From an uncultured Shimia sp. (GTDB taxonomy: Bacteria > Pseudomonadota > Alphaproteobacteria > Rhodobacterales > Rhodobacteraceae), in NCBI GenBank assembly GCA_937897325.1, contig CALCOY010000026.1:62001-126000 (forward strand): 64,000 nt of DNA. Direction: 5' to 3'. Shown here in pieces: positions 6,635 to 35,120 of the stretch. The notes under the pieces are model-generated. The model was not told the DNA's origin. It saw only the letters and a program-made list of their open reading frames with translations, and did no database searches. Every line of letters starts with the position of its first letter. Within the stretch, counting starts at the first letter, position 1. The translations under genes and the position numbers were made by a program.

Positions 6635-8506
6635 ATGACCGCTGACCAGATCGTCACGCTGACCACGGCGCAAGCCATAATCAAGTGGCTCGAAAACCAG
6701 TATATCTACATTGAAGGAGCCGAATGGCGGATCTGCGGAGGTGGCTTTGGCATCTTCGGACATGGAAACGTCACCTGCCTGGGCGAGGCCCTTTACAATG
6801 CAAAAGACACCCTGCCACTTTATCGTGGGCAAAACGAACAGGGCATGGGTTTTGCGGCGGCGGGATACGCGAAACAGTGGCTGCGCAGACGTTTCATGTT
6901 CTGCACCGCTTCGGCTGGGCCCGGGACCACAAACCTTGTCACCTCGGCAGCGCTGGCCCATGCCAATCGCCTGCCCCTGCTGCTGCTATGCGGTGATACC
7001 TTCCTGACCCGGCTTCCTGACCCGGTCCTTCAACAGATGGAGAACTTTGGCGATCCGACCTTCGGCGTTAACGATGCCTTCAAACCCGTCAGCCGCTATT
7101 GGGACAGGATCACGCACCCCGCGCAAATCATTCAATCACTGCCAGCGGCACTGGCGACGATGCTGGATCCAGCGGATTGCGGGCCTGCCTTTCTTGGCCT
7201 TCCACAAGATGTCCAGGGTTGGAGTTATGATTATCCCAGCGCATTCTTCGAGAAGCGCGTGCATCGCATTCGCCGCCAACTTCCAGACCGAGGCGAAATC
7301 GCCGATGCAGTGGCTGCCTTGTCAAAGGCAGAGCGTCCCATAATCATCGCAGGCGGCGGCGTGCAATATTCAGGCGCCGTTACCGAACTGACGGCATTTG
7401 TTGAAAGGCACCGGGTTCCGGTGGTCGAGACAATCGCGGGCCGAGCGAACCTTCTGGACACTCACCCGCTCAACATCGGTCCTATTGGTGTAACGGGATC
7501 AGACAGCGCCAATGCCATCGCGGAACAGGCTGATACGATCCTGGCCGTTGGCACGCGCCTTCAGGATTTCACGACAGGATCCTGGACCGCCTTCGCGAAA
7601 GACGCGCAATTCATTTCCCTGAATGCAGCACGACACGACGCCGGAAAACACCGGGCACTTCCTGTAGTAGGCGATGCCAAGATTGGCCTAAAGGCGTTAA
7701 CTGACGGGCTGAAAGACCACAAAACTCCCGAAAAATGGGTGGAGTTCGCACAAGCAGAGCGGACGAAATGGACCGCCTACGTACAAGAAAACGTGTCCTT
7801 CGGCGACAACCGCCCGAACTCATACGCCCAAGCCATTGGCGTCGTGAACGCCCATTGCCATCCGCGTGACCGCGTTGTGGCCGCTGCGGGCGGCCTGCCG
7901 GCAGAAGTGACAGCGAATTGGCGCTCGCTTGCGACCGGAACCGTCGATGTTGAATTCGGTTTTTCCTGCATGGGCTACGAGATTTCGGGCGCCTGGGGTG
8001 CCCGCATCGCGCAAGCCCAACAAGAGCCTGAGCGTGATACGATCACCTTTGTTGGTGACGGGTCTTACCTGATGATGAACTCCGACATCTATTCGTCCGT
8101 GCTGACAGACAAAAAGCTGATCATTCTGTTGCTGGACAATGGCGGCTTCGCGGTGATCAACAAACTGCAGAACAACACCGGCAACGAGAGCTTCAATAAT
8201 CTGATTGCCGATTGCCCCACCGTGGTGAACCCTGTTCGGGTGGATTTCGAAGCGCATGCCGCCGCTATGGGTGCCGAGGCCGAGACCGTCGCCAATCCCG
8301 CAGAACTGGCCCACGCCTTTCAGCGGGCGAGGACCACCAGCAAAACATGCATCATCGTTATGAAAGTCGACGCCCACGAGGGCTGGACCACCGAAGGCCA
8401 CGCTTGGTGGGAAGTCGGCACGCCACAAGTCTCGTCCTCCGAAACAATACGCGCGGCCCACAAGGAGCAGGAAGCCTCCCGCAGCAAACAACGTCAGGGA
8501 GTTTGA
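6635..8506 (+). CDS. iolD: 3D-(3,5/4)-trihydroxycyclohexane-1,2-dione acylhydrolase (IolD)
   Basis: Thiamine-diphosphate enzyme of 623 residues that hydrolyses the ring of the diketone intermediate to 5-deoxy-glucuronate in the cytosol. The N-terminal ThDP domain has the activating glutamate E68 in RGQNEQGMG; a central DHS-like domain follows; the C-terminal ThDP/Mg site is GDGS at residues 474-477, followed by the conserved asparagine region DNGGFAVINKLQ. I prefer the ATG at 6635, which begins just before the family's LTTAQA segment; an ATG at 6587 with a CAGGAA ribosome site is a real alternative adding 16 residues. The stop overlaps the start of iolC (TGATG). Confidence 0.95.
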   Translation: MTADQIVTLTTAQAIIKWLENQYIYIEGAEWRICGGGFGIFGHGNVTCLGEALYNAKDTLPLYRGQNEQGMGFAAAGYAKQWLRRRFMFCTASAGPGTTNLVTSAALAHANRLPLLLLCGDTFLTRLPDPVLQQMENFGDPTFGVNDAFKPVSRYWDRITHPAQIIQSLPAALATMLDPADCGPAFLGLPQDVQGWSYDYPSAFFEKRVHRIRRQLPDRGEIADAVAALSKAERPIIIAGGGVQYSGAVTELTAFVERHRVPVVETIAGRANLLDTHPLNIGPIGVTGSDSANAIAEQADTILAVGTRLQDFTTGSWTAFAKDAQFISLNAARHDAGKHRALPVVGDAKIGLKALTDGLKDHKTPEKWVEFAQAERTKWTAYVQENVSFGDNRPNSYAQAIGVVNAHCHPRDRVVAAAGGLPAEVTANWRSLATGTVDVEFGFSCMGYEISGAWGARIAQAQQEPERDTITFVGDGSYLMMNSDIYSSVLTDKKLIILLLDNGGFAVINKLQNNTGNESFNNLIADCPTVVNPVRVDFEAHAAAMGAEAETVANPAELAHAFQRARTTSKTCIIVMKVDAHEGWTTEGHAWWEVGTPQVSSSETIRAAHKEQEASRSKQRQGV

Positions 8507-27653: not shown

Positions 27654-28604
27654 GCAAACCGCCTGTCTGGCAAAAAAGGTAGAGCGGTCGACGTTGGCAG
27701 ATCAGATCTCTTGGTTTCGCCTTACCTTCAACGCATCAATGGCATGAGCAAAGCAGCCAGTATTGTAGCGCGTCACATAAATCTAACTTTCTGGAACACG
27801 TAAAGTGCTGATTTTGTTGATGTAAGACTTTCGATTTGTCACCAAAACTGGCTTTTGGTCAGATAAGTTTGACCTTGCTGTTCGCTGGTGCAACAGGACG
27901 GGCCCTGACAGTATTGGGTATCAAGCTCTTCTCTAGGGAGTATCGGTAAGCAAATAGAATCTACTTGCTCTCAGGTGACCAAAATGAATAGCGGGCACAA
28001 CGCTTTGTGCCTCAAGCGCAAGAGCCAAAGGTCCGGGCGCACAACCCGATGATTTCGCACCTTCGACAAGGGATGTATACTGACGTCTGAAGCGACGTAG
28101 CGATCCGGCTTCGATGACGTTGATTGACCTTCGCTGAACCGGCCAACCGATCTCGCAACTCGTCAATTCCTTCTCTTCAACGAGCCTCTCAATGGCACCC
28201 AAGGTGGTGTCAAACAGATCGGCCGCGTCGGTCGGCGTGCATCCGCAAGAGGCTGGGCGCCGGGAGCGGTCATTCCAACAGCACGCAGCGTAAATCGCAA
28301 TGACCGCCATGGGCCCATCGCCGCCGAATGCGCATGCAGCAAGCGTCCGGTCGTGGCTGAGCCTGAACCAGCAGTTGATAAGTCGGAACAAACCCGTGAT
28401 TTCTCGGCGTTCCTGAGAAAGCTCTGCAGTCCGCCACCCGAGAGCGGAGGTCCGAACCAGCGGCGATGAAAGCGGACTGTGAGCCCGTACCTCCCAATGC
28501 TACATTCGCATCCCGGTTTGCGAGCATTTGCGAAGCGGGAAGTCCAGCGACCCAAATGCCTGACAGATCGCTGAGTATGCGCTTTCAAAAGAGATGACTG
28601 CCGC
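27654..28604. other. Long gene-poor spacer after the glucan locus
   Basis: About 950 bp with no intact gene and frequent stops on the plus strand. On the minus strand fragments of coding character occur in different frames between about 27933 and 28590 (see the pseudogene entry). No terminator with a convincing T-run was found behind malQ. Confidence 0.5.
27933..28391 (-). pseudogene. Possible remnant of a helix-turn-helix (TniQ-like) protein
   Basis: The minus-strand reading ends with a segment (28230-27933) containing PTDAADLFDTTLGAIERLV, RRSINVIEAGSLRRFRRQY and ASRFYLLTDTP. The pattern of a short HTH, an arginine-rich linker and a final tyrosine-rich strand resembles the C-terminal DNA-binding part of TniQ-type transposition proteins. 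Upstream parts of such a protein appear only in other frames (for example LANRDANVALGG at about 28527-28490), indicating frameshifts. Recognition is weak; it may be another DNA-binding protein fragment. Confidence 0.3.
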
Positions 28605-29288
28605 CTAGATATTCGGGTCCTTGAGACACCGGAAGCAGAGCTTCCATCGGGCGTATGTCTCCACCCGCTCCACGTCCGTAGGGAAGTATTCGTTCGGTGG
28701 TTCTAAAGGAATAAATGCGTTTGCCAGAAATCTGCTGATCGAGACCTCAAGCCCTGCCTTTAGGAATGCGGCAGCGATGGTGGCGATCGAGTGGTTCGGT
28801 ACAGAGATGTTCGAGAATTCCGCGATCTTCGGTCGCCATCGCGCCCATAGCGGGCTGTCGGCATGGCAGCATGTGACCGCGTCATAGTGGCCGCCCGGTT
28901 TCAAAACTGCGGCCACCTGTTTGGCGTGATCTTCCAGATCGTCGATAAGATAAATCACCTCATGACTGAAAGCCATGTCAAAGCCACCGCCTGTGTCCGC
29001 CAGTTGACTTGAGGCCAGATATTCGAGAGGCCGACCACCCCTGGCCGCATTTGCCAGTGACACCCGGTCACGCGCAAGATCAATACCTACGCCAGAGGCA
29101 AACGGCCGGGTGTCATATAGCATCCGCAGGAAACCGCCCTGATTGCAGCCAATATCAAGTATCCGCGCGGCAGAGATATCTCGTTGTGGAACAATGTTGA
29201 TCATCTCACGCCAGATCCAAGCATGTTCCTCGGTCATGCCGTCCTCTTCGGACGCATCCTTCGACCAGGTTTCAATCAGTTCGGTCAT
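28605..29288 (-). CDS. Class I SAM-dependent methyltransferase
   Basis: Protein of 227 residues with the Rossmann motif I ILDIGCNQGGFL (residues 43-54), the acidic motif II region GVGIDLARDR near 67, and FDMAFSHEVIYLIDDL in the motif IV area. Substrate is not evident; the C-terminal part ends in the cysteine-bearing sequence KLCFRCLKD. The ATG at 29288 lies one base after the pseudoazurin stop, so the two are translationally coupled, and the gene is the last of the iron-type ABC transporter operon. Methylation of a metal chelator or of a small acid is possible but purely speculative. Confidence 0.83.
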   Translation of the reverse strand: MTELIETWSKDASEEDGMTEEHAWIWREMINIVPQRDISAARILDIGCNQGGFLRMLYDTRPFASGVGIDLARDRVSLANAARGGRPLEYLASSQLADTGGGFDMAFSHEVIYLIDDLEDHAKQVAAVLKPGGHYDAVTCCHADSPLWARWRPKIAEFSNISVPNHSIATIAAAFLKAGLEVSISRFLANAFIPLEPPNEYFPTDVERVETYARWKLCFRCLKDPNI

Positions 29289-29289
29289 A

Positions 29290-29787
29290 TCAGGCGCTTT
29301 TCTCTTCCAATTGCCCCAGAAGCGCCCGGAAATTCTTGCGGGCGTCACCGGGGTGGCGGATCCTTTTTACATCGGCGAGGTTTGACAGATCATCGCCGAC
29401 CACAATCAGCCCAACCATACCCCATTCATAATGCGGAAGACACAGATATCCATAGATTCCGGGCACTGTGAGGGTGACAATAACTTCTTCATCGATGGCA
29501 CCATTCCACGGCTCAGCACCTTCCGGGATCATACCGCGTTTGGACGCGGTGTTATGGCTGGGGTCGGTTGCCAGGAATTGTACGCTATCGCCGGGTTCGA
29601 TATGCAGGATGGCCGGTTCGAAGACGTTGACGATATTGGCGTCATTGCAATCGACGTTGAGCATCATGACGGTGTGATCGGCCTCGGCACTTTGTGCCGC
29701 GTCTGAATTGGCCAACAGCGGCGTGGCGGCGGCGAGCGAGCCAAGTGACAAGGTGAACGTGCGACGGTCAAGCGTGGGAATAGGCAT
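29290..29787 (-). CDS. Pseudoazurin-type cupredoxin
   Basis: Protein of about 165 residues with a twin-arginine-like signal (DRRTFTLSLGSLAAATPLLA) and a type 1 copper domain. Ligands from the ATG at 29787 are H78 (DPSHN), C116, H119 and M124 in CLPHYEWGM, the C-x2-H-x4-M spacing of pseudoazurin. FEPAILHIEPGDSVQF and GMIPEGAEPW also match that family. A TTG at 29796, four bases after GGAGG, is an alternative start. Pseudoazurins usually shuttle electrons in the periplasm, for example to nitrite reductase, but here the gene lies between a metal-complex ABC transporter ATPase (overlapping its 3' end) and a methyltransferase. An electron-transfer or metal-reduction role in uptake is an inference. 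Confidence 0.88.
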   Translation of the reverse strand: MPIPTLDRRTFTLSLGSLAAATPLLANSDAAQSAEADHTVMMLNVDCNDANIVNVFEPAILHIEPGDSVQFLATDPSHNTASKRGMIPEGAEPWNGAIDEEVIVTLTVPGIYGYLCLPHYEWGMVGLIVVGDDLSNLADVKRIRHPGDARKNFRALLGQLEEKSA

Positions 29788-30538
29788 GGACGACAAGGTC
29801 CTCCTTGGGGCCAGTGGCGATGTGAATATCGACGCCGTAGGTCTGGGCGATCTCGGGTCGGCGCAGAATGTCGTTGGGTGGTCCCTCGGCTAGAACTTCT
29901 CCCTGACGTAGCAGGATCAGGTGATCGGCGAAGCGGGCGGCAAGGTTCAAGTCATGCAGTGCAACGATGCCAATGGCATCGCGTTCGGCGACTGCTTCTC
30001 GGATCTGGTTCAACACGCGCAACTGGTGGTTCAGATCCAATGCCGAGGTCGGTTCGTCAAAAAGGTAGACTTCGGAATTACGGATGAGCGCCTGACAGAC
30101 CGATACCATTTGCGCCTGTCCGCCAGACAATTCGCTGATGTAGGCTTCAGCCAAATGGCCAATCTCGGCTTCGTGCAAAGCTTGCGCGACGGCTTGTGTG
30201 TCTTCGGATGTGACACGCCACCCACTTAGGTTTTTGCGCGCCATCATGACCACATCAAAAACTGTCAGCGCGGCATTCGCTGCAAAGAACTGCGGCATGA
30301 AGCAGACGCGCGACAGACGCGCCTTGGGCGACAGCGTTGCCAGATCTGTCTCCCCCAGCAGCACTGTGCCCTCGGCTTTCAGCAGACCCGCGATCGCGCG
30401 GAAAAGGGTAGACTTACCCGATGCATTCGGCCCAATTAGCGCGGTCAGTTGACCAGATTGCAGCGGCGCAAACCCTGCGCGTCTCAGGATCGGGCGGACG
30501 CCGTAGGCAAAGTTAAGGCCCCTGACTTCCAGCGTCAT
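29768..30538 (-). CDS. Ferric-complex/cobalamin-type ABC transporter ATPase (FecE/BtuD family)
   Basis: Protein of 256 residues. Walker A is GPNASGKST (K42), the signature is LSGGQAQM near residue 138, and Walker B is VYLFDEPTSALD near 157; the switch His lies in VALHDLNLA. The ATG at 30538 overlaps the permease stop (ATGA); a TTG two codons upstream is possible. The ATPase belongs to the siderophore/haem/vitamin B12 import class. Its C-terminal end overlaps the pseudoazurin gene by about 20 bp, so the operon is compact. Confidence 0.9.
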   Translation of the reverse strand: MTLEVRGLNFAYGVRPILRRAGFAPLQSGQLTALIGPNASGKSTLFRAIAGLLKAEGTVLLGETDLATLSPKARLSRVCFMPQFFAANAALTVFDVVMMARKNLSGWRVTSEDTQAVAQALHEAEIGHLAEAYISELSGGQAQMVSVCQALIRNSEVYLFDEPTSALDLNHQLRVLNQIREAVAERDAIGIVALHDLNLAARFADHLILLRQGEVLAEGPPNDILRRPEIAQTYGVDIHIATGPKEDLVVHAYSHA

Positions 30539-31605
30539 TGCCAATGCCTTTTGCGCTGGCCAAGGATCAGACTCACGAAGAACGGGATGCCGATCAGCGA
30601 GGTGATCATACCGATGGGATAGACGATGCCGGGTGTGATGGCTTTGGACAAGATAGAAGTGCCTGACAGGATCAATGCGCCTGCTAGGGCGGACAACGGC
30701 AAGAAGCCGCGTTGGTCTTCGCCGACGATCATGCGCGCGATGTGCGGTGCGACAAGACCTACAAAGGCGATGGCCCCTACGAAGGACACCGCAACCGCCG
30801 AGAGCAGCGATACGCCCGCCAGCACCATCAACCGCAGTGCATTGACGTTGACACCAAGGGCTGCGGCCTTGTCCTCGCCCATCCTGAGGGCCGTCAGCGC
30901 CCAGGAGCGGCTAAGAAAATAGGGCAGAACGATTGCGAGGATCACGACGCAGATTGCCACTTTGGGCCAAGTGGCACGTGCGAGCGAGCCCAACTGCCAA
31001 AAGATCAATTGCGCGAGCTGCAGTTCAGATGCGCCGTATTGCAGGAATGCCAGCAGCGCGTTGAAGGTGAACATCATAGCGATGCCCATCAGGATCATCG
31101 TCTCGGGGTTTGCCCCCCGCATGCGGGTGACCAAAAACAGAAGTAGCGAAGCCCCCATCGCAAAGACGAAGGCGTTCACCGTCACAAACAGCGCGCCGAC
31201 GCCGGGCAAGACGGACCAGCCTAGGACAATGGCCACCGCTGCCCCGAAACTTGCTGCCATGGAGAGGCCCAGCGTGAATGGTTCCGCCAGGGGATTGTTT
31301 AGAATGGTTTGCAGCTCGGCACCGGAGACGCCCAGCATGGCACCTACGACGACGGCCATCATAGCAACTGGCAAGCGCAAATCCCAGATGATGACCTCTT
31401 CCTTGGTCGTGGCTACGGAGGGGTTCAGGATCACTTTGGCGACCCGCCAGAAGCTGAGGTCAGCCGGACCGGTGATCACGTCAATCACAACGGTAGCGAA
31501 AAGGATCAACGCCGCGGCAACCACAAGGGCAACGCGCCAAACGGCACGTTTTTGATAACCACCAACAATCGTGTCCACGCTGGGCGTGTTTGAAATCTGT
31601 GTCAT
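30535..31605 (-). CDS. FecCD-family ABC transporter permease (siderophore/haem/B12 class)
   Basis: Inner-membrane protein of 356 residues with about ten hydrophobic helices. Hallmarks are LPVAMMAVVVGAMLGVSGAE (the RLPR-x2-A...G-x-ALA-x-SG region), NNPLAEPFTLGLS and GAIAFVGLVAPHIAR followed by GEDQRGFLP, which contact the ATPase. I prefer the ATG at 31605; a GTG at 31620 gives a five-residue extension. It follows the binding-protein gene by about 40 bp and overlaps the ATPase by 4 bp. Confidence 0.91.
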   Translation of the reverse strand: MTQISNTPSVDTIVGGYQKRAVWRVALVVAAALILFATVVIDVITGPADLSFWRVAKVILNPSVATTKEEVIIWDLRLPVAMMAVVVGAMLGVSGAELQTILNNPLAEPFTLGLSMAASFGAAVAIVLGWSVLPGVGALFVTVNAFVFAMGASLLLFLVTRMRGANPETMILMGIAMMFTFNALLAFLQYGASELQLAQLIFWQLGSLARATWPKVAICVVILAIVLPYFLSRSWALTALRMGEDKAAALGVNVNALRLMVLAGVSLLSAVAVSFVGAIAFVGLVAPHIARMIVGEDQRGFLPLSALAGALILSGTSILSKAITPGIVYPIGMITSLIGIPFFVSLILGQRKRHWQ

Positions 31606-31647
31606 TGGAATTGACCCCACCGCAGCATTGCAGCGGGGCCCCGACTT

Positions 31648-32805
31648 TTACTGTATTGCCTTGTCAACGCTCAGCCAGAACTGGCCGGACGCTTCATACG
31701 GCATGAACTCTTCATGCAGACGGTTGAAGGTATCTTGCGGATCAAGGTCCTCAAAGTCATCTGGATAGAGCCACTTGGCAATCTGCTGCACCGCCACAAA
31801 GTGGTAGGGGGAATTGTAGAACTGGTGGTAGATGGAATGGTAATTGCCCGCTTGCACGGCACGCAATTCTGCAAACCCTGGCCGCGCCGCAAGTGCGGCA
31901 ATCTTCTCGGCGTTGACATCTGGATCACCCTCGTAGCCAAGCAGCGTCGATGTGACTTCTGGCTTGGCCTCTGCCCAGTTTGCGCCTGTCCCGATTACGT
32001 GGTCCGGGTCTGCTTCCAATACGCCTTCCATCGACAACGTCACGGAGTAAGCATTCGCCAGTGTTGATGCATAGTTCACGCCGCCAGCCAACTCTACGAA
32101 CCGCCCGTAGTTATAGGGACCGAAGGACCAACAGCAAAAGTCAGGCTGCCAGCCAGCAGCGTTTTCCACAACAACCAGCGGGCGCTCTTCAGCTGGGATC
32201 TTATCAACCACGTTGGTAACCTTGCGCATCTCAGCGATATAGAAATCGATGAACTCTGCCGCACCCGCTTCTTCGCCAAAAATGCGACCTAGGATCAGCA
32301 GGGACGGCACCGTGTTCTCGGTCGCATTCCGACGGAAGTCGATGAAGACGACAGGGACGCCCGCCTTGTCCAGCTTTTCGATCAGACCGGTTTCTTCGGC
32401 TTTGAAAAGATTGCCGGAATCAAGCAGCACGAGATCAGCGTCCGCTTCGAGCACCCCTTCGATACTGAAATCACCGGCATAAGGGTTGCCAAAGTTGATC
32501 ATTCTCTCGGTCTCTGCGGGAAATGCGGCCTCCAACTTGCGGAATGCATCCGGATCAAACTGAACCAGATCGTCTTTCCAACCCACGATGTTCTCGAAAG
32601 GATTGCCTTCTGTAATTGCGGCAATCGCATACATCATCCTGCCTTCGCCTAGAATAATTTTGTCAGGAAGCTCATTAAGCGTTACTTGCCGACCGGCAAT
32701 GTCAGTTAAAGTGAGGGCTTCGGCCTGTGCAGATGTCGCTGGCGTGAGGAAGGTCACGATTGCTGCAAGCAAAAGGGCAAAGCCGCTCATGAAACGAGTG
32801 TTCAT
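31648..32805 (-). CDS. Periplasmic binding protein of iron-complex ABC transporter
   Basis: Protein of 385 residues with a signal peptide (to about ATSAQA) and the class III, long-helix-hinge binding fold (PF01497). The mature start LTLTDIAGRQVTLNE is typical of FepB/FhuD/BtuF proteins. EGVLEADADLVLLDS and EGVLEADPDHVIGTG are the two lobes' equivalent strands. GGAGAGCACGCT precedes the ATG. It is the first gene of the five-gene operon with permease, ATPase, pseudoazurin and methyltransferase. The metal complex carried is unknown; no TonB-dependent receptor gene is adjacent. Confidence 0.88.
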   Translation of the reverse strand: MNTRFMSGFALLLAAIVTFLTPATSAQAEALTLTDIAGRQVTLNELPDKIILGEGRMMYAIAAITEGNPFENIVGWKDDLVQFDPDAFRKLEAAFPAETERMINFGNPYAGDFSIEGVLEADADLVLLDSGNLFKAEETGLIEKLDKAGVPVVFIDFRRNATENTVPSLLILGRIFGEEAGAAEFIDFYIAEMRKVTNVVDKIPAEERPLVVVENAAGWQPDFCCWSFGPYNYGRFVELAGGVNYASTLANAYSVTLSMEGVLEADPDHVIGTGANWAEAKPEVTSTLLGYEGDPDVNAEKIAALAARPGFAELRAVQAGNYHSIYHQFYNSPYHFVAVQQIAKWLYPDDFEDLDPQDTFNRLHEEFMPYEASGQFWLSVDKAIQ

Positions 32806-33159
32806 AGCGTGCTCTCCTATTGGCTATGTGAGGTTATTAAATCCATCAGCAGATAAAACCAAGTGAAAAACTCAGGTAATAAAAATCGAACCTCTTCGCT
32901 TCAGTCGCGAAACGCTCTACGCGGTCATTCAAAGGCAGAAACCGAACTTCCGAAACGTCCGCAATCAGCGCGTCCACCTCACCCTCAACGAACAGTCGGA
33001 TATGGCAGTATGGCTGCCGCTGACAATGCAGCCGTCGCGACCGGCTCAGCACTAAATGGTCGTGAAACCGCGTCCGAGCTGGTGCCCCATGGTGCTCAAG
33101 CTCAGAAACGTGACGAAAAAGTCAGATTTATCTGACGAAAGACAAATATGTTTGTGATT
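32806..33159. other. Spacer between iron-transport operon and tRNA-Ala
   Basis: About 350 bp holding the presumed promoter of the ABC operon. A 68-codon minus-strand frame at 32846-33052 reads RLFVEGEVDALIADVSEVRF in its middle, faintly like the end of a family 3 solute-binding protein, but it has no ribosome site or full domain. I treat it as a possible fragment and not as a gene. Confidence 0.4.
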
Positions 33160-33235
33160 TGGTGGAGCCTAGCGGGATCGAACCGCTGACCTCCTGCATG
33201 CCATGCAGGCGCTCTCCCAGCTGAGCTAAGGCCCC
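33160..33235 (-). tRNA. tRNA-Ala (anticodon GGC)
   Basis: Minus-strand sequence of 76 nt with an encoded CCA end. The acceptor stem GGGGCCT pairs with AGGCTCC (one G-T pair), the D-arm is GCTCAGCTGGGAGAGC, the anticodon stem CCTGC/GCAGG encloses loop ATGGCAT with anticodon GGC, and the T-arm is AGCGG-TTCGATC-CCGCT. It decodes GCC and GCU alanine codons. Confidence 0.97.
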
Positions 33236-33304
33236 AAACCATCCGCCGGTGATTAGGCGCTTTGTCGGACGGGATCAAGTGATAAATCCCGCCATCTTTT
33301 GGGA

Positions 33305-33631
33305 TCATTCTTCGTCCTCCGATGCGACGTCTGTGATCTCGTCCAGCGAGACATCATCGTTGTCATCATCATCGTCAAGCAGATCATCGTCGAGTTCGAC
33401 CTCGACGTCATCCTCGTCCAGTACATCATCGTCAGATGCGTTGGCGGCTGTCGCCTTGGCCTTTGTCGTTGCCGCATCTTCGGCATCTGCGGCGATCATC
33501 CGGGTCTTGCTGCTGTCGACCTCAACCGCCTCGCCAGTATAGGGCGAAACGATTGGATTCTGGTTCAGATCATAGAACCTTTTGCCGGTCGTGGGACAAA
33601 GACGCTTGGTGCCCCATTCTTCCTTTGGCAT
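33305..33631 (-). CDS. FYDLN-acid domain protein (TIGR02300 family)
   Basis: Protein of 108 residues. The conserved N-terminus MPKEEWGTKRLCPTTGKRFY is followed by DLNQNPIVSPYTGE and then a long acidic tail (about residues 65-108) made mostly of D and E with few hydrophobics. The family is restricted largely to alphaproteobacteria and its function is unknown. The start at 33631 sits exactly before the conserved MPKEEWG; a 29-codon upstream extension is not conserved. It diverges from the metallopeptidase gene at 33725. Confidence 0.92.
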   Translation of the reverse strand: MPKEEWGTKRLCPTTGKRFYDLNQNPIVSPYTGEAVEVDSSKTRMIAADAEDAATTKAKATAANASDDDVLDEDDVEVELDDDLLDDDDDNDDVSLDEITDVASEDEE

Positions 33632-33724
33632 GTGAAATCCTCTTGTCCGAGGCCACCCTTGCGGGCGGCGCTGTTGCGACGATTCTGGGCAAGTGCCATA
33701 AGCATGTGGCGGAGTCAAAGCCTT

Positions 33725-34438
33725 ATGATCGCGGAGCCCAAGCCCATGGCGCAGTTGATGTTGTCAGATGGTCCTACCCTGTCCATCGACCTGCGCCGAT
33801 CATCCCGTGCGCGTCGGCTGACACTGCGGGTCAGTCAGCTGGATGGCCGCGTGACTTTGACGTTGCCCACCAGCGTGTCAGAATGTGAAGCCCTGCAATT
33901 TGCCCAAAGCAAAGAGGCCTGGTTGCGCACGCATCTCGAGCGCTTCGAAGGGATCGTTCAGGTCGAATTCGGCACCTCTCTGCCTTTCGAGGGCAAGCCC
34001 ATCAGAGTTATGCCCGGCACAGGCAGACGCATCACTCAAAGTCCTGACGAAATCCACGTGCCGGGACCTGCGGAGCATGTGGGGCGCAAATTGCAGGTCT
34101 TTCTAAAAACCCGGGCGCGCGACCGGCTCGCCGAAGCATCTGACCTCTATGCTGGACGTCTCGGAAAAGCCTTCTCTGGGTTAACATTGCGTGACACCCG
34201 GTCCCGGTGGGGATCATGCACCTCAAAGGGACGGATCATGTACTCCTGGCGGCTGATCCTCGCCCCGCCCGGGATCCTCGAGTATGTCGCAGCGCACGAG
34301 GTTGCACATCTCGAACAGATGAACCATTCGCCGGCTTTCTGGGCATTGGTCGAACAGATCCACGGCGACTATCGCCAGCCGCGCGCTTGGCTGCGCGCCA
34401 ACGGGGCCAGCTTGCACCGCTATCGCTTTGCGGATTGA
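33725..34438 (+). CDS. YgjP-type (DUF45) M48-like metallopeptidase
   Basis: Protein of 237 residues of PF01863. The zinc motif is H191-E192-V-A-H195 with a further His at 201 (HEVAHLEQMNHSPAFW); RWGSCTSKGRIMYSWRL just before it is the other family signature. There is no signal peptide, so it acts in the cytoplasm. Relatives such as YgjP occur beside restriction or repair genes in other bacteria, but the function is not established. Start ATG 33725 is likely; ATG 33746 is an alternative, and an extension further upstream would overlap the divergent FYDLN gene. A GntR gene follows 31 bp downstream. Confidence 0.87.
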   Translation: MIAEPKPMAQLMLSDGPTLSIDLRRSSRARRLTLRVSQLDGRVTLTLPTSVSECEALQFAQSKEAWLRTHLERFEGIVQVEFGTSLPFEGKPIRVMPGTGRRITQSPDEIHVPGPAEHVGRKLQVFLKTRARDRLAEASDLYAGRLGKAFSGLTLRDTRSRWGSCTSKGRIMYSWRLILAPPGILEYVAAHEVAHLEQMNHSPAFWALVEQIHGDYRQPRAWLRANGASLHRYRFAD

Positions 34439-34469
34439 CCCTGCGCATCCTGCGTGATCACAAAAGGAC

Positions 34470-35120
34470 ATGAGCCTGGCCCAACGCAGCAGCGACACGA
34501 CCACCGCAGCCCATGACAGGGTCTACCGGCGCCTACGCACCCGGATAATGCACGGTGATATCCTGCCGGGGCAGGCTTTGACGCTGCGGGGCATCGGCAA
34601 GCAATACGATGTCTCTATGACCCCCGCGCGCGAGGCTGTCCGGCGGCTTGTCGCCGAAGGCGCGCTTAGCCTTTCCGCCTCTGGCCGCGTTTCGACCCCG
34701 GAATTGTCGAACGAACGGATCGAGGAACTCGCCGCTCTGCGTGCCCTCATAGAAGTGGAGTTGGCCACCCGCGCCCTGCCCCGCGCGCATCTGGCCCTGA
34801 TCGAACGCTTGCAAAGCATCAACGGCAGCGTGGCCGAGGCCGTCGCGCACCGGGATGCCGTCAGCTACATTCGGACCAACCTTGAATTCCACCGGACACT
34901 TTATCTGCGCGCGCAAGCACCTGCGATGCTCGCTATGGCCGAAACCGTCTGGCTCCAGATGGGACCAACCATGCGGGCGCTTTATGGTCGACTGCGCCGA
35001 ACGGAACCGCCCCGCTATCACAAGCTCATCATCGCGGCGCTGCGGGCGGGCGATGAACCGGGGCTGCGCCTTGCCGTCCGCTCGGATGTCACGCAGGGCT
35101 TGCGGATGCTGGCAAGCTGA
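34470..35120 (+). CDS. GntR-family (FadR/FCD subfamily) transcriptional regulator
   Basis: Protein of 216 residues. The N-terminal winged helix has LTLRGIGKQYDVSMTPAREAV (about residues 37-57), and the C-terminal FCD-type all-helical domain contains metal-ligand candidates in NLEFHRTLY (H at about 144) and PPRYHKLII (H at about 190). AAAGGA precedes the ATG. It lies directly upstream of, and in the same direction as, the ABC importer at 35199-37779, which it probably controls, with a small carboxylic acid as the likely ligand class of FCD proteins. Specificity is unknown. Confidence 0.88.
   Translation: MSLAQRSSDTTTAAHDRVYRRLRTRIMHGDILPGQALTLRGIGKQYDVSMTPAREAVRRLVAEGALSLSASGRVSTPELSNERIEELAALRALIEVELATRALPRAHLALIERLQSINGSVAEAVAHRDAVSYIRTNLEFHRTLYLRAQAPAMLAMAETVWLQMGPTMRALYGRLRRTEPPRYHKLIIAALRAGDEPGLRLAVRSDVTQGLRMLAS

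Follow-up and report, generated by a model that had tools for sequence, protein, structure and literature searches.

The window analysed here is a stretch of 64,000 nucleotides from an uncultured Shimia sp. (GCA_937897325.1, contig CALCOY010000026.1, positions 62,001 to 126,000). It contains five minus-strand genes which almost certainly belong to the same operon (Table 1). The first three encode a binding protein, a FecCD permease and a FecE-like ATPase, a combination that marks a class III metal-chelate importer; a pseudoazurin and a methyltransferase follow. The close packing noted in the original prediction was confirmed. Gaps of 42 nt and 1 nt separate the binding-protein gene from the permease gene and the pseudoazurin gene from the methyltransferase gene, and the permease and ATPase genes overlap by 4 nt, the ATPase and pseudoazurin genes by 20 nt. 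All five products scored over the Pfam cut-offs of their families (Peripla_BP_2, FecCD, ABC_tran, Copper-bind, and Methyltransf_11, 12, 23, 25 and 31), and the pseudoazurin also passed the NCBIfam cut-off of TIGR02375 (122.2 against 109.85 bits). A tRNA-Ala gene (33160-33235) and an FYDLN_acid gene lie 5' of these genes, so the operon most likely begins at the binding-protein gene. The tRNA was the sole match in an Rfam scan of positions 28000-34500.

Table 1 Features of the importer operon in the window
Feature	Position	Strand	Basis or remark
Binding protein (Peripla_BP_2; YiuA-like), 385 aa	31648..32805	minus	6b2x YiuA, E 1.3e-75
FecCD-family permease, 356 aa	30535..31605	minus	PF01032, E 1.8e-80
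FecE-type ATPase, 256 aa	29768..30538	minus	ABC_tran
Pseudoazurin, twin-arginine-like signal (LDRRTFTLS), four copper ligands	29290..29787	minus	Signal judged twin-arginine (Tat) by eye
Class I S-adenosylmethionine (SAM) methyltransferase, 227 aa, optional part	28605..29288	minus	Pfam families
Iron-box-like palindrome, 52-74 nt 5' of the binding-protein start	32857..32879		Leave-one-out score 13.3

The pseudoazurin gene accompanies this importer in its close relatives. An alignment of the binding protein was compared with bacterial and archaeal genomes, the best 80 of at least 566 relatives were examined, and gene presence was scored by tblastn. Pseudoazurin was found at 22 of the 25 close loci (binding protein at least 65% identical), where the first four genes stay together; at one further close locus (L071; loci are given by L numbers) the contig stops before the ATPase, and the place of the pseudoazurin is not covered. 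None was seen in the 55 distant loci (at most 52% identity), among which L131 ends just past the ATPase and L143 has no permease match. The proposed tie between pseudoazurin and transporter thus withstood a comparison in which it could have failed. With start codons taken nearest to the ATPase stop, the ATPase and pseudoazurin genes share 11-17 nt at this junction in each of the 22 relatives, and a twin-arginine-like motif begins at the chosen start in 18 of them (by eye). The carriers include Roseobacter, Sulfitobacter, Tateyamaria, Pelagimonas and Labrenzia/Roseibium, and the operon is also found on plasmids of Phaeobacter gallaeciensis (pGal_A255 of strain DSM 26640) and Tateyamaria omphalii. 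The outer flanks vary among six pseudoazurin-bearing loci compared by eye, which suggests that the unit consists of the four genes. A tRNA gene and an FYDLN_acid-like gene adjoin the operon both in the window (33160-33718) and in L092 (11488-12007, the gene there recognised by eye). Their orientation relative to the operon is opposite in the two loci, which may reflect a shared insertion site or an inversion.

Pseudoazurin is the textbook electron carrier of denitrification, and nitrite reductase and cytochromes dock at its ring of lysines. The protein of the window has the four predicted copper ligands, H78, C116, H119 and M124 if counted from the ATG at 29787 (H81, C119, H122 and M127 from a TTG start). 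In a tree calculated without the broken gene of L089, and with a bootstrap that had not settled, proteins of the window type form one clade (group I; 24 rows, to which one genome contributes two; support 97/90). Four others (L176, L197, L200 and L211; group II) form a separate clade (support 100/98). Five plantacyanin-like proteins (L215, L216, L217, L218 and L220) were placed as sisters of group I, which looks like a long-branch effect, and this placement was discarded.

The copper site of group I is kept almost throughout (His 24, Cys 24, His 24 and Met 23 in the 24 rows). The ring, assigned through our own motif alignment, is nearly lost. Four positions carry mostly Lys or Arg in 71 other pseudoazurins; across them, group I has a single basic residue in 96 cells (a Lys in L078), and they are neutral or acidic in 23 of the 24 rows. 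The position after MLN is Ala in 23 and Val in one, compared with 27 Lys and 21 Arg among the others. Before GHN, one Lys in 24 stands against 43 Lys and 10 Arg. The position after Phe/Trp is Asn in all 24 (others: 37 Lys, 9 Arg), and that before the copper Cys is Ile, Leu, Met or Val (others: 37 Lys, 4 Arg). A denitrification-type lysine ring is hence all but missing from group I, and a conserved SKRG has been gained after the first ligand. Compared with the denitrification carriers of TIGR02375, with which it shares the family cut-off and the four ligands, the operon form differs by this ring, by SKRG, by the twin-arginine-like signal (18 of 22) and by its place in an importer operon. The loss of the ring speaks against an ordinary denitrification carrier; together with the retained ligands, it is consistent with a protein that remains redox-active and has acquired a new partner.

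The region upstream of the operon points to iron. When 26 upstream regions (the window and 25 relatives) were searched for motifs without supervision, a palindrome emerged in 24 of them, the gammaproteobacterial L087 scoring low (5.0). Boxes were then scored by leave-one-out, L081 with a corrected start and L087 left out beforehand, against 688 upstream regions of 160 nt from other genes in the 80 loci, as delimited by our own script-made gene calls; a few operon genes near contig ends fell among these controls. All 25 regions (the window and 24 relatives) lie above the 99th percentile of the controls, and 0.6% of the controls score as high as the box of the window. The same threshold was exceeded upstream of 22 of 48 distant YiuA-like genes (48 of the 55 loci, 200 nt read) and of six of 15 hemP genes (300 nt; L151, L158, L159, L160, L162 and L163, scores from 12.6 to 25.2). 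A site to which IscR of R. sphaeroides binds (PMC6956336) scores 14.9 of a maximum of 21.6 on our motif, a value reached by 0.01% of shuffles. The Iron-Rhodo-box is described as a palindrome of 19 bp located upstream of genes for iron uptake, hemP included (PMC4618611). By this comparison with one bound site and a description of the box, such an element stands before the first gene. The same paper describes a single-Cys IscR beside a cysteine desulfurase for Rhodobacteraceae (PMC4618611). The genome of the window encodes two clear Rrf2-family proteins, one of which has a single Cys in PCPAV and adjoins a cysteine desulfurase gene (by eye), so that an IscR of this type is encoded. Sequence comparison thus makes it very likely that the operon is iron-regulated, with IscR as the candidate regulator, and since the palindrome before the binding-protein gene matches an IscR-bound iron box, the importer most likely serves the uptake of a ferric chelate under iron limitation.

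A separate transcription start before the pseudoazurin gene and a response to nitrate had been considered as a contrary outcome. Neither gained support from the sequence: the pseudoazurin and ATPase reading frames overlap, and the iron-box-like motif lies 5' of the binding-protein gene. The ring loss and the control elements taken together led us to set denitrification aside as a less probable cause of the association. The iron box would also agree with iron sparing, in which the pseudoazurin, as a general copper protein for electron transfer, would take over from c-type cytochromes during iron shortage and would simply be co-regulated with uptake. A box of its own was found within 300 nt upstream of the pseudoazurin in six of 152 loci, about 2-3 being expected by chance, and those of L067, L187 and L293 score 19-21. 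Moreover, the operon copy on pGal_A255 lies near nirK and nor-like genes with NnrS, one hint of a denitrification link. Iron sparing is nevertheless unlikely, as group I is nearly devoid of basic residues at the four ring positions and the riboswitch-controlled operons described below follow no iron-sparing logic.

The binding protein gives some indication of the cargo. Its nearest solved relatives are YiuA of Yersinia pestis (6b2x, 6b2y) and the related chains 9hrj and 9ht5 (E 1e-75 to 1e-73), and the Cys-Cys pair of YiuA is kept. In YiuA, the proposed chelate site consists of Arg64, Arg165 and Arg223 (PMC5683015). R56 and R158 of the window protein retain the first two positions, as do all 26 clade members; the third Arg is replaced, by Ala216 here. 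The position next to it is Asn in all 26 members, compared with Arg in 38 of the 55 distant relatives. From this replacement, a chelate of lower negative charge can fairly be inferred. Judged by these sequence features, the cargo is likely a ferric, siderophore-like chelate.

Pseudoazurins also occur in a second kind of importer operon. A cobalamin riboswitch lies 5' of the binding-protein gene in all eight group-II loci (L176, L197, L200, L211, L282, L283, L284 and L285), of which L282-L285 were placed in the group by profile score and not by the tree. The pseudoazurin follows the ATPase in seven of the eight, and a methyltransferase gene follows the pseudoazurin in three (L197, L282 and L284). 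L176 adjoins cobO, cobW and cobN. In L284, the pseudoazurin gene is immediately flanked by a solitary binding-protein gene and a methyltransferase gene, and a separate importer with its own riboswitch lies next to them; this arrangement suggests that the pseudoazurin interacts with the binding protein or its cargo. A further B12-type case, L069, comprises a riboswitch, a TonB-receptor-like gene, an importer, CbiZ, DUF6925 and a pseudoazurin. The group-II operons encode BtuFCD-type importers and, like the window operon, include a pseudoazurin gene, yet their binding proteins belong to another lineage and their pseudoazurins to another clade, and part of the ring is retained (Lys before the copper Cys in 4/4). 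The window has an iron box instead and no cobalamin riboswitch.

Given group II, the group-I importer might itself move a corrinoid or heme, the pseudoazurin serving corrinoid or heme uptake throughout. The ATPase of L322 passes the heme-importer cut-off (311 against 261 bits), a riboswitch and a second importer directly follow the pseudoazurin in L090 and L221, and the third position of the basic triad is lost. This explanation is rather improbable, as a scan of the window and of 19 of the 25 close relatives showed no riboswitch 5' of the binding-protein gene, iron boxes are present instead, and YiuA is the nearest solved relative.

The riboswitch-controlled lineage speaks against iron sparing and likewise against copper uptake. 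As originally proposed, the importer could carry a chelate of copper or of another metal; the pseudoazurin would then accept or store the copper. A blue copper protein is indeed part of the operon, and an MbnH-like di-heme protein, although below its family cut-off, follows the heme-type importer and pseudoazurin of L322 (8086-9246). This explanation is very unlikely, since the regulatory elements identified are iron boxes and B12 riboswitches, and pseudoazurin (TIGR02375) is by family an electron carrier. What stood of the original proposal is that the copper protein is a true operon member, for which a redox role is the best reading.

Chance neighbourhood, in which a denitrification pseudoazurin merely happens to follow an importer, would be the simplest account. 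With carriers in 38 of 149 genomes, pseudoazurins are common in the family, and in the survey of these 149 genomes, one per genus, no co-location of binding protein and pseudoazurin was found beyond the window's own genome. The wider binding-protein scan reversed this negative. In addition, neighbouring FecCD genes were sought at 49 of the 50 places where the family set has a pseudoazurin, and one was found within about 6.5 kb at seven of them (the window, L062, L069, L187, L197, L200 and L211). Excluding the window, this gives 6/48 against 0.33 expected (P 1.1e-6; 113 FecCD genes in 235 Mb of 61 genomes). Another 71 places, drawn from additional genomes of the family, included seven near FecCD against 0.49 expected (P 7e-7); this set was found through the group-II profile and may favour group II. 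Without L331 and L339, which appear to be the same genomes as L073 and L077 of group I, 5/69 remain (P 1.3e-4). With conservation in 22 of 25 close loci, separate lineages, a P of about 1e-6 and its replication, chance is hardly credible, and pseudoazurins have been recruited to separate importer lineages.

Taken together, these sequence features suggest that the operon may well be an iron-limitation operon which imports a ferric chelate with the help of a dedicated periplasmic redox protein. When iron is scarce, repression by holo-IscR would be lifted and all genes would be transcribed on one message. The binding protein would take up the ferric chelate in the periplasm and pass it to the FecCD/FecE complex. 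The pseudoazurin would exchange one electron with the cargo metal, on the binding protein or just before entry; that it acts on the cargo is an evenly balanced proposition. Oxidation, Fe(II) to Fe(III) or Co(II) to Co(III) with the electrons passed on to a periplasmic carrier, would be the likelier direction, because with potentials near +0.3 V pseudoazurins are well placed to take electrons from reduced cargo and poorly suited to the reduction of ferric siderophores, but as a claim of its own the oxidising direction is doubtful. Oxidation would hold the chelate in, or return it to, the oxidised form competent for transport, e.g. after photoreduction in surface water. The methyltransferase would then probably modify the chelator after uptake. 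Put more generally, and tentatively, pseudoazurins may be a hitherto unrecognised class of redox accessories, recruited independently to importers of iron chelates, cobalamin and perhaps heme, that set the oxidation state of the metal in cargo on the binding protein, a co-encoded methyltransferase then altering the chelator in the cytoplasm. Since the pseudoazurin is an established part of importer operons with an iron box and, in another lineage, of those under B12 riboswitches in Rhodobacterales and relatives, an as yet unassigned electron-transfer step would be implied in the uptake of two scarce nutrients. A two-protein reaction is thereby defined, and orphan methyltransferases tied to the same importers would gain a functional lead.

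Several observations weigh against this proposal. Two close loci, L082 and the gammaproteobacterial L087, have no pseudoazurin, the copy of L089 is broken, and L075 has Ile in place of the Met ligand. The loss of the lysine ring is limited to group I. The pseudoazurin-FecCD counts are not independent events, as group II is one clade, and outside the family none of 30 class-level pseudoazurin loci lies near FecCD. No TonB receptor was seen by eye among the open reading frames of the window at 24-38 kb. Within the genome of the window, the strict palindrome is no more frequent than in its control (nine sites, control 10), and the motif is absent upstream of hemP (-4.4) and of iscR (-11.3); upstream of the latter (L353) lies TTTAGAACTGTTCTAAA, which we take to resemble an Irr box rather than an IscR box.

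The methyltransferase is a looser companion. The original prediction had tied it to the transporter, which holds in so far as methyltransferases recur beside such importers, but the gene is optional: orthologues (61-76% identity) follow the pseudoazurin in five of 22 loci. Relatives of 32-34% identity follow the ATPase in the gammaproteobacterial L103 and L105, both without pseudoazurin. Among the 31 downstream proteins scanned (29 of 46 candidates plus two further segments), 13 were methyltransferases. On plasmids of Shinella, Phyllobacterium and Sinorhizobium, a homologue of 41-43% identity is convergent with a two-permease iron-type importer; on a fourth plasmid, of Roseomonas, the homologue is not convergent with such an importer. 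Methyltransferases of more than one kind thus accompany such importers, yet are not needed. The predicted fold is that of a generic small-molecule methyltransferase (best match 6f5z, TM 0.79), and the enzyme probably modifies the chelator after uptake.

Redox steps are known from other iron uptake systems. The iron importers FtrABCD and EfeUOB include a cupredoxin-like component with the oxidation of Fe(II) as its presumed role; they move free iron via FTR1-type permeases, whereas here a chelate ABC importer is combined with a blue-copper pseudoazurin. Ferrisiderophore reductases of the PepSY_TM or FpvG-FoxB type provide a redox step in siderophore uptake by membrane-bound reduction, in contrast to the soluble copper protein of this operon. 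A PepSY_TM gene precedes the copy on pGal_A255 (L174 5250-15964), where AraC and TonB receptor genes also surround the operon. YiuABC shares with the window operon the Cys-Cys pair and two of the three triad positions; it has the third Arg where the window protein has Ala beside the clade-fixed Asn. The word "methyltransferase" is absent from the main text of the YiuA paper (PMC5683015), in which pseudoazurin was not looked for. Among the open-licence papers listed for pseudoazurin in siderophore/ABC transporter, cobalamin or broader contexts, and in passages of PMC9409073, no description of a pseudoazurin in such importers was found.

Some pseudoazurins outside these operons have neighbourhoods of their own. 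Twin-arginine-type pseudoazurins in L187 (4994-8459), L062 (8787-9518) and L181 (5801-6493) lie near a family of hypothetical proteins, and two of the three members were scanned without a Pfam match. L187 also contains a two-permease importer beside an apparent TPMT-type methyltransferase and a siderophore-interacting FAD reductase (by eye). In L068, a pseudoazurin gene (7713-8231, minus strand) is close to apparent pufL, pufM and bacteriochlorophyll genes (by eye), and this pseudoazurin is possibly an electron donor to the reaction centre.

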